A stretch of 8,040 nt of DNA, taken from Candidatus Rokuibacteriota bacterium. GTDB taxonomy: Bacteria > Methylomirabilota > Methylomirabilia > Rokubacteriales > JACPHL01. Position numbers and translations under genes: made by a program. Location of the stretch: the NCBI GenBank assembly GCA_016188625.1, contig JACPHL010000045.1, positions 1-8,040 on the forward strand, read 5' to 3'. The notes under the pieces were generated by a model. It ran no database searches. It was given only the letters and a program-made list of their open reading frames with translations, and was not told where the DNA came from. Within the stretch, counting starts at the first letter, position 1. Every line of letters starts with the position of its first letter. Below, one piece after another: positions 2,420 to 4,587 of this stretch.

Positions 2420-3177
2420 GGCGGGTGCGCTACGAGGCCATCCTCTTCGACCTCTTCGATACCCTGGTCCTCTTCGACCGGGATCGCCTCCCCCTCGTCC
2501 AGCTCGACGGGAGGGCGGTGCGCACGACGGCCGGCCACCTCCACCCGCTCCTCGCCGAGCGCTACCCGGAGACCACCCTCGACGCCTTCCACGACGCCCT
2601 GGTCTGGAGCTACCAGGAGGCCGAGCGCCGGCGGGCGCGGGACCACCGGGAGATCCCGGCCGGCGAGCGGTTCCGGCTCTGCTACGGCCGGCTGGGGCTC
2701 GACCCCGGGGCGGTCCCGGAGGAGGTGACCGGGCGGCTCCTGGCGGCCCACATGCTCCACCTGGCGAGGGCGGCCGAGTGCCCCGCCGATCACCTGGCGC
2801 TCCTGGACTGGCTCCGCGGCCGCGCCCGGCTCGGCGTCGTCTCCAACTTCGACTACGCGCCGACCGCACACCGGGTTCTCGAGCGGGCCGGTATCCGGGG
2901 GCGCTTCGAGGCCGTGGTCGTCTCCGAGGAGGTCGGGTGGCGGAAGCCGAGGCCCGAGATCTTCGAGGTCGCCTTCCGGCGGCTAGGGCTCGGAGCGCGC
3001 GCGGCCCTGTTCATCGGGGACCGTCCCGAGATCGACGTCCTCGGTGCCCACGGCGTGGGGATGGACGTGGCCTGGCTGAACCCGGGGCGCGAGCCTTTCC
3101 CCGAGGGTCTTCGGCCCCCGACCTACGAGTTGGGCCGCCTGGCCGACCTCCGCGGGGTCCTTGAAGGAAAGGGTTGA
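2416..3177 (+). CDS. HAD-superfamily (subfamily IA) hydrolase
   Basis: This is a 253-residue haloacid dehalogenase-type hydrolase, most likely a small-molecule phosphatase of the cytoplasm. All four HAD motifs are present: motif I FDLFDTL with nucleophile D12 and acid/base D15; motif II VVSNFD with S143; motif III around K177 in WRKPRPEIF; motif IV FIGDRPEIDVLG with D202 and D207 for magnesium binding. A helical cap domain occupies about residues 20-120. VSNFD and WRKPRPEIF are typical of the HAD-IA/YjjG-like group, but the substrate cannot be read from sequence. The GTG at 2416 overlaps the preceding TGA stop (GTGA), which suggests translational coupling; an in-frame GTG at 2425 is an alternative that would remove three residues without touching motif I. 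Its TGA stop lies inside the TTGACA -35 box of the next promoter. Confidence 0.9.
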   Translation: MRRVRYEAILFDLFDTLVLFDRDRLPLVQLDGRAVRTTAGHLHPLLAERYPETTLDAFHDALVWSYQEAERRRARDHREIPAGERFRLCYGRLGLDPGAVPEEVTGRLLAAHMLHLARAAECPADHLALLDWLRGRARLGVVSNFDYAPTAHRVLERAGIRGRFEAVVVSEEVGWRKPRPEIFEVAFRRLGLGARAALFIGDRPEIDVLGAHGVGMDVAWLNPGREPFPEGLRPPTYELGRLADLRGVLEGKG

Positions 3178-3202
3178 CAGGGGGCTGCCCGTCGGGTATC
3201 CT
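3174..3202 (+). promoter_or_regulatory. Sigma70-type promoter for the csp leader
   Basis: A perfect -35 hexamer TTGACA (3174-3179) is followed after exactly 17 nt by TATCCT (3197-3202), a 4/6 match to the -10 consensus. Transcription should begin near G3209. The -35 box contains the TGA stop codon of the HAD gene, so the upstream operon and the csp unit are packed with no spacer. This is the best consensus promoter in the window. It predicts a leader of about 116 nt before the csp start codon. Confidence 0.75.
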
Positions 3203-3207
3203 AATCG

Positions 3208-3284
3208 CGATTGCCGGGGTAAGTGCCTGAACGGTGATCGATGGATCGCGCGCAAGGGCTTCCCGATGGCCCTTGCGTTTTTTT
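3208..3284 (+). ncRNA. Structured csp leader or small RNA ending in an intrinsic terminator
   Basis: The segment between the predicted transcription start and the T-run folds into two hairpins. Hairpin 1 pairs GATTGCCG (3209-3216) with CGGTGATC (3232-3239), eight consecutive pairs including two G-U; a ninth, C3208-G3240, is possible if transcription starts one base earlier. Its 15-nt loop is purine-rich. A 10-nt linker leads directly into the terminator hairpin (3251-3277) and seven T. This is the layout of a small independent RNA of about 75 nt or of a terminator-controlled leader. I do not recognise a known riboswitch class. Long structured 5' leaders are known for cold-shock genes, but an embedded terminator is not the textbook mechanism. 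Whether it regulates anything is inference. Confidence 0.4.
3251..3284 (+). terminator. Intrinsic terminator upstream of csp
   Basis: The perfect 9-bp stem CGCAAGGGC (3251-3259) / GCCCTTGCG (3269-3277) has a 9-nt loop and is followed at once by seven T (3278-3284). It sits about 42 nt downstream of the predicted start of transcription and 40 nt before the csp start codon, so transcripts must read through it to express csp unless an unseen promoter lies between. No convincing promoter is visible in 3285-3324. Confidence 0.85.
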
Positions 3285-3324
3285 GTGGTCGCTTGCCCCC
3301 AGTTTGACGGAAGGAGCAGTGCAG

Positions 3325-3528
3325 ATGCGAGAGACCGGAACCGTGAAGTGGTTCAACGAGGCCAAGGGGTACGGCTTCATCGAGCGGTCGGGCGGGGAGG
3401 ACGTCTTCGTCCACTACTCGGCGATCCAGGGCTCGGGCTTCAAGACGCTGACCGAGGGCCAGCTCGTGGAGTTCGACGTCGTGGAGGGCGCCAAGGGGAA
3501 GCAGGCCGCCAACGTGACCCAGAAGTAG
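3325..3528 (+). CDS. csp: Cold-shock domain protein (CspA family)
   Basis: This is a 67-residue single cold-shock domain protein, a five-strand OB fold that binds single-stranded RNA and DNA and acts as an RNA chaperone. The N-terminal [16 protein letters not shown] contains the RNP1 motif (KGYGFI), and DVFVHYSAI contains RNP2 (VFVHY). The end, [11 protein letters not shown], is also typical, and the length matches the family. The ATG at 3325 is preceded by AAGGAG at 3311-3316 with 8 nt spacing. The frame stays open upstream to an ATG at 3241, but that would add 28 non-family residues across a terminator hairpin. The gene is monocistronic, with its own promoter and strong terminators on both sides. 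Whether it is cold-induced cannot be told from sequence, though the long structured leader makes post-initiation control plausible. Confidence 0.96.
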
Positions 3529-3544
3529 CCTGCCTCGCGGGCGG

Positions 3545-3576
3545 GCGGCCCCGGGGAGACCCGGGGCCGCTTTTTT
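3545..3576 (+). terminator. Intrinsic terminator after csp
   Basis: A perfect 11-bp stem, GCGGCCCCGGG (3545-3555) / CCCGGGGCCGC (3560-3570), is closed by a GAGA (GNRA) tetraloop and followed by six T (3571-3576). It lies 16 nt after the csp stop codon and should isolate csp from trxB. Confidence 0.92.
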
Positions 3577-3651: not shown

Positions 3652-4587
3652 ATGGCTGACGTCCGGAGGATCATCATCCTGGGATCGGGGTCCGCAGGGC
3701 TCACCGCGGCCGTCTACGCGGCCCGGGCCAACCTCGCTCCCCTGGTGCTGGCCGGGAGCCAGCCGGGTGGCCAGCTCACCCTCACCACGATGGTGGAGAA
3801 CTACCCCGGCTTCCCCGACGGGATCATGGGCCCCGACCTCATGGCCCTCATGCGGCAGCAGGCCGAGCGCGTCGGGACCGAGGTGCTCGACGACGACGCC
3901 ATCGCCGTGGACCTCTCCCATCGCCCCTTCACCGTCAAGACCGCCGAGCGGTCGTTCCGGGCCGAGGCCCTGGTCGTCGCCAAGGGGGCCTCGGCGAAGC
4001 TCCTGGGGCTCGACTCCGAGTGGCGGCTGCTCTGACGCGGGGTCTCCACCTGCGCGACCTGCGACGGCTTCTTCTTCAAGGACCAGGACCTGGTGGTGGT
4101 CGGCGGGGGCGACACGGCGGTGGAGGAGGCGCTCTTCCTGACCAAGTTCGCCCGCCGGGTGGACGTGGTCCACCGGCGGGACGCCCTGCGCGCGTCCAAG
4201 ATCATGCAGGAGCGCGCCCGCCGCGGCGAGAAGATCGGCTTCATCTGGAACAGCGTGGTGGAGGAGATCCGCGACGTGGAGGCGGGGAAGGTCACGGAGG
4301 TGCTCCTCCGCGACCTGGAGACGCGGAAGCTGACCGAGCGCCCCTGCGACGGGGTCTTCGTCGCCATCGGCCACACCCCGAACACCCAGCTCTTCGCGGG
4401 CCAGCTGGAGATGGACGAGCGGGGCTACCTGGTGACGCGGCCCGGCAGCACCGCCACCAACGTCCCCGGGGTCTTCGCCGCGGGCGACGTCCAGGACCAT
4501 GTCTACCGGCAGGCGGTGACCGCGGCGGGCTCGGGGTGCATGGCCGCCATGGACGCCGAGCGCTTCCTGGAGGCCGAGGGGCACTGA
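3652..4587 (+). pseudogene. trxB: Thioredoxin reductase (trxB) interrupted by one in-frame TGA
   Basis: This FAD/NADPH flavoenzyme would reduce thioredoxin. The frame codes for a normal-sized TrxB (311 positions) except for TGA at codon 128 (4033-4035). In order: an FAD-binding GSGSAG (11-16), QPGGQL and [14 protein letters not shown], the interruption, the redox motif C134-A-T-C137-D, the NADPH-binding [10 protein letters not shown] (151-160) with HRRD (174-177), and FAD-contacting GVFAAGD (273-279). Escherichia coli TrxB reads ...FKGRGVSACATCDG; the stop replaces the Gly before RGVS, a single GGA to TGA change with no frameshift. The ATG at 3652 has AAGGAGG at 3634-3640. Restart at GTG 4093 would lack the CATC motif, so neither half could be an active enzyme alone. 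UGA ends five frames here including this one, which argues against reassignment. Causes could be a true nonsense mutation, a sequence error, or less likely readthrough. Two more unusual residues (S14, K111) are described in the findings. Confidence 0.9.

Follow-up and report, generated by a model that had tools for sequence, protein, structure and literature searches.

We analyzed an 8,040-nucleotide stretch of DNA from Candidatus Rokuibacteriota bacterium (hereafter, the window), whose source assembly is 2.6 Mb in size and 84% complete. The named genomes that gave its closest matches belong to Candidatus Methylomirabilota. Its plus strand carries csp (3325-3528), a gene encoding a 67-aa cold-shock domain protein (Pfam CSD PF00313, E 1.8e-30). 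The gene is preceded by a Shine-Dalgarno-like sequence, GGAAGGAG (3309-3316), and is followed by a terminator of its own, identified by pattern scan (3543-3572). The csp leader on the same strand was found to consist, in order, of a promoter (3174-3202), a hairpin denoted hairpin 1 or P1 (3208-3240), and an intrinsic terminator (3250-3284). The promoter is of the sigma-70 type, with TTGACA at 3174-3179, a 17-nt spacer, and TATCCT at 3197-3202, giving a consensus score of 10/12. It was the one sigma-70-like site found by pattern scan in the surrounding 900 nt, compared with 0.0 +/- 0.2 in shuffled sequences. The -35 box overlaps the stop codon (TGA, 3175-3177) of an upstream HAD gene.

Hairpin 1 is predicted to form between CGATTGCC (3208-3215) and GGTGATCG (3233-3240) through 8 pairs including G-U, with a GGGG segment opening its loop. 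In the fold of minimum energy, it gains an inner stem, GGGU/GCCU. The terminator arms, GCGCAAGGGC and GCCCTTGCGT (3250-3259 and 3269-3278), form 9 canonical pairs plus a G-U pair around a loop at 3260-3268, and are followed by a U-run at 3278-3284. The terminator ends 40 nt before the csp ATG at 3325, and no promoter-like site was found by pattern scan between the two. The initial annotation of this DNA had described the same promoter, 5' hairpin and terminator, and had likewise seen no other promoter between the terminator and csp; our coordinates agree with it. The predicted 78-nt RNA comprising the two hairpins has a folding energy of -35.6 kcal/mol (z -3.67) and surpassed all 200 of 200 shuffles. 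Terminators identified by pattern scan alone were not rare (2 found versus 1.0 +/- 1.2 expected), and chance is excluded as an explanation of this one because it is conserved among relatives, as described below.

The leader also contains an ATG at 3241, in frame with csp (3241-3528), which would add 28 residues to the protein if used. We considered and rejected attenuation by a leader peptide: the frame from this ATG runs into csp, it has no preceding Shine-Dalgarno sequence, and inspection of the relatives by eye showed no clear counterpart. Elsewhere in the window, a thioredoxin-reductase-like gene (3652-4587) has an in-frame TGA at 4033-4035, shortly before the CATC active site. Both halves of the gene match consecutive parts of the Pyr_redox_2 profile, and the TGA may be a sequencing error, a mark of a pseudogene, or a case of recoding.

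Conservation of the csp leader in Methylomirabilota

We collected csp upstream regions from relatives belonging to about ten families of one class, locating the csp start by tblastn and then scanning for a terminator (a hairpin plus T-run) and for a promoter. A terminator was detected in 69 out of 89 Methylomirabilota regions, and in 63 of the 89 a sigma-70-like promoter, TTGACA-17-TAnnnT as in the window, was located 25-130 nt ahead of it. Several of the 20 regions scored as lacking a terminator are detector misses or masked sequence (e.g. L011, L174, and L155; masked in L129). By comparison, among 63 non-csp genes taken from these loci, each 150 aa or longer, a terminator was found at that place in 5 and a promoter ahead of it in 1. 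Compensatory changes were observed in 5 out of 15 terminator-stem pairs. The initial annotation had pointed to the conservation of both stems in relatives as a check on its reading; the terminator is widely conserved, and L005 and L014, the closest relatives, appear to share a related hairpin 1 (three sequences in all, including the window, too few to claim covariation). In the window's order, G002 and G003 are the only genomes found with its leader type. A DNA search of the relatives with the 81-nt leader returned noise only, because the letters diverge.

The recurrence of the promoter-terminator-csp order in about ten families supports the proposal, made in the initial annotation, that csp is subject to attenuation and would need read-through to be expressed. 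The terminator might instead belong to the upstream LUD/HAD operon, with csp transcribed from an unseen promoter beyond it: in the window it starts 73 nt past the HAD stop codon, which the promoter itself overlaps. However, the order was found next to unrelated or divergent upstream genes. The gene upstream of csp varies, and it lies on the opposite strand in L009 and L097, which argues against the leader terminator simply marking where an upstream operon ends. In addition, the window has no promoter-like site after the terminator, and such a site was found in 1 of the 69 terminator-bearing regions. We therefore regard an operon terminator as very improbable.

The window genome carries a second csp (C246, L162) with a strong promoter and no terminator, so only some csp paralogues carry a leader terminator. 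In L170, L176, and L177 (f2, a Rokubacteria-like family), one csp copy with its own leader terminator is directly preceded by a gene for a DEAD-box RNA helicase.

Specificity of the leader to csp

We built a covariance model, R1, from 26 sequences of the leader sub-types f5, f8, and f9, and ran it on 99 genomes. Strong matches were located directly 5' of csp, with the exception of one situated 9 nt from the end of a contig. Matches away from csp were weak, at about 35 bits and below (including G077:C43, at 35 bits, and G095:C30), and no gene class other than csp followed high-scoring matches in these genomes. The specificity to csp holds for the modelled sub-types f5, f8, and f9, since R1 fails to recognise the window's own leader sub-type. 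In L187 and L190, weak R1 matches were located ahead of a DAHP-synthase-like gene; this is another terminator-bearing leader and possibly a separate attenuator.

These results bear on whether the promoter and terminator could produce a separate small RNA (about 75 nt) that acts in trans, leaving csp to depend on leaky read-through or on expression from another site. The complete promoter-to-terminator unit, the strength of the terminator, and the lack of a visible antiterminator in the window would all suit such an RNA. In the modelled sub-types, however, no R1 leader was found to occur independently of csp: the high-scoring leader never stands apart from the gene save for the match at the contig end. 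Moreover, no promoter follows the terminator in 68 out of 69 cases. The initial annotation had offered a separate RNA of this size as its second reading. A free-standing small RNA now appears less likely, because the modelled leader occurs essentially only before csp, and we consider it improbable; a short terminated RNA is still expected.

Distribution in other phyla

The terminator was also found at named csp loci of Desulfobacterota, Nitrospirota, and a few other groups. In the Desulfobacterota class that includes L112, 30 out of 35 csp upstream regions contained a terminator and 26 out of 35 had a promoter ahead of it. The terminator counts were 7 out of 33 in a Nitrospirota class and, in sparser samples, 6 out of 27 in Acidobacteriota, 8 out of 27 in the Eisenbacteria phylum, and 7 out of 28 in the Desulfobacterota phylum. 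No strong leader terminator was found at the Marinobacter, Paenibacillus, and most Acidobacteriaceae csp loci scanned. Judged from these scans, the csp leader terminator is common in Methylomirabilota and in one Desulfobacterota class and is patchy elsewhere. In the latter class (L109, L111, L112, and their relatives), the pre-terminator segments GUCAG and GCAGGGC are complementary to the post-terminator segments CUGAC and GCCCUGC, in crossing order.

Complementarity between the RNA 5' end and the terminator loop

The initial annotation had suggested a contact between a GGG in the loop of hairpin 1 and a CCC in the terminator loop. In the window, a 5' element, CGGGG (3215-3219), is complementary to a segment of the terminator loop, UCCCG (3261-3265), with which it can pair. 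We found complementarity between the 5' end and the loop in many clades, through different letters: the 5' end GUUUAGCAUG accompanies the loop AUGCUAA in the Desulfobacterota class, UUUCGUGA lies opposite UCAUGAAA in f8 leaders, and CCGAUU lies opposite AAUCGG in L005, which is closely related to the window. The suggested contact thus survives in its general form, while the particular letters are not conserved.

We compared the fit of each 5' end to the loop of its own clade with its fit to the loops of other clades, permuting clades after removal of row and column effects. The 5' end was found to fit the loop of its own clade better than those of other clades (p 0.00045 with 23 groups; p 0.0003 with 18 collapsed clades), and an ungapped complementarity score gave p 0.00025. 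With the three clades that had suggested the idea held out, p was 0.026-0.041 (14-22 nt) and 0.0016 (26 nt). Three controls were null (p 0.70-0.80): the loop tested with the last 18 nt before the terminator, the loop tested with the post-terminator segment, and the first arm tested with the 5' end. When 13 newly sampled leader groups of other phyla were tested alone, the result was not significant (p 0.2-0.4), and all 32 groups pooled gave p 0.005 (18 nt) and 0.0002 (26 nt). Covariation counts are uninformative in the Desulfobacterota class, because its 5' element is nearly invariant. The contact in the window comprises 5 pairs and does not outscore shuffled versions of the GC-rich 5' end (z -0.2 to -0.4). 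The window's 5' end ranks second among the 23 clades for the window's loop, and the support for its contact comes from the comparison of clades and not from its own pairing score. At the level of sequence, the 5' end and the terminator loop are complementary and change together between clades.

This co-change also bears on a simpler account, in which the terminator would be a constitutive, unregulated, partial one that acts as a transcriptional brake, while csp, like E. coli cspA, would be controlled through the stability and translation of its RNA. The strength and loop of the terminator vary, and hairpins after it suggest additional translational control; both observations speak for this account. 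A bare terminator, however, gives no role to a complementarity that changes clade by clade, and we judge a mere brake to be unlikely.

Alternative pairings and antiterminators

The GGGG of the window has three mutually exclusive partners: hairpin 1, the terminator loop, and CUUGCCCC just past the terminator. In the minimum-energy fold of the read-through RNA, the post-terminator segment CGCUUGCCCC (3290-3299, plus strand) can form 10 pairs with GGGGUAAGUG (3216-3225). The GGGGY/RCCCC pairing is kept in the window's two nearest relatives, L005 and L014. Good pairing between pre- and post-terminator segments was found in the window and in the Desulfobacterota class, each taken singly; as a general rule, it was not significant in the clade test.

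In four sub-types, a pre-terminator segment can pair with the first terminator arm: GCUUUUGU with GCGAAAGC in f5, GGCUUGUUGUGG with CCGCAAGGGC in f8, GUUCCGUUGGUU with AACCGUAGGAGC in f9, and ACUUCCGUGGUUU with GACCGCGGAGG in f8b. In several of them, the truncated RNA is predicted to fold into this pairing. Across all clades, native pairs were not better than swapped ones (p 0.18), and no convincing antiterminator was seen in the window. A classical antiterminator is thus plausible in f5, f8, f9, and f8b, and not in the window.

Comparison with known systems

None of the Rfam 15 covariance models matched the window at the gathering score, and up to E 10 the search returned only an unrelated 8.5-bit match to PhotoRC-I. 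No known riboswitch in this release matched the window, and neither did the cspA thermoregulator model, at the gathering score or up to E 10. The leader resembles those of the E. coli cspA type in being a long, structured csp 5' leader. In the E. coli csp leaders inspected, by contrast, no intrinsic terminator was seen by eye, and the known control acts through mRNA folding and translation. A CGGUUU-like motif occurs about 8-12 nt past the -10 box of csp promoters, whether or not the leader has a terminator, in Methylomirabilota and in E. coli cspA, cspB, and cspG (L162, L124, L193-L197, and other leaders). The spacing from the -10 box to CGGUUU(G) in E. coli cspA, cspB, and cspG is similar to that in many of the leaders studied here, and cspI has GGUUUG. 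In 75 leaders, two adjacent positions were T in 77% and 73% of cases.

The leader shares the order of promoter, 5' hairpin, terminator, and gene with classical attenuators that have exclusive terminator and antiterminator folds, and in f5, f8, f9, and f8b a segment could pair with the first arm as in these. Unlike these, it has no recognised leader peptide or known ligand domain, and in most clades the contact is with the loop and not with the stem. The hexanucleotide loops typical of the ANTAR motif were not seen in the window. The leader is otherwise similar to ANTAR two-hairpin antitermination in having two hairpins, the second adjoining the terminator (EutV, PMC3369931). Terminators at metY-rpsO, at SgrS, and in B. 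subtilis man, lia, and pyr are comparable in that Csp alters read-through (PMC9765468, PMC11648934, PMC8307031). There, however, Csp acts on other genes, whereas here the predicted terminator precedes csp itself.

The cspA leaders of Agrobacterium and Enterococcus, described as thermosensors, are read through to the full mRNA (PMC3738593, PMC7724050), and the main text of a survey of premature terminators does not mention csp (PMC2965389). Among the openly accessible papers searched, none was found that describes a csp leader with a terminator. The proposed on/off control by a csp leader is apparently undescribed, and it is most likely a variant of transcription attenuation.

A model for attenuation of csp

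Taken together, the window probably contains a cis-acting transcription attenuator in the csp leader. We favor a csp-specific attenuator as the most likely explanation because the architecture recurs, R1 is nearly exclusive to csp, and the upstream genes differ or are divergent. RNA polymerase would start at about 3208-3210 and by default stop at the terminator to give a short RNA (about 75 nt), and csp would be made only from the read-through fraction. This fraction could be set by the contact of the 5' end with the terminator loop (CGGGG with UCCCG in the window). The 5' element can meet the loop while the second arm of the terminator is still incomplete, and it could therefore either delay closure of the stem or hold it as a kissing complex, with effects of either sign. 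In f5, f8, f9, and f8b, a segment after the 5' end may in addition act as a classical antiterminator by pairing with the first arm. We infer that termination is regulated, and likewise the sign of the contact's effect and its controller.

By analogy, the controller is most likely the Csp protein itself, cold, or both. Csp proteins bind single-stranded, U-rich RNA and change read-through at terminators, so occupancy of the leader would report the level of free Csp. Feedback by Csp, alone or with cold, is favored because of the effects of Csp proteins on read-through at intrinsic terminators. Two papers, both citing Bae et al. 2000, state that E. coli Csp proteins attenuate intrinsic termination (PMC9765468, PMC11648934), and B. 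subtilis Csp proteins mostly favor termination (PMC8307031). We raise, tentatively and with low confidence, the possibility of a class of autoregulatory attenuators in which the nascent 5' end kisses its own terminator loop and binding of the 5' end by free Csp, or cold, decides between the terminated and read-through RNA. In such a class, the CGGUUU motif would connect these leaders with the 5' ends of csp mRNAs in E. coli.

With a conserved terminator placed before its own gene, such a protein would have the simplest feedback loop possible. The arrangement allows the way in which these RNA chaperones sense their level to be tested directly and by measurement. Should the contact of the 5' end with the loop be real, it would represent an uncommon way of controlling an intrinsic terminator.
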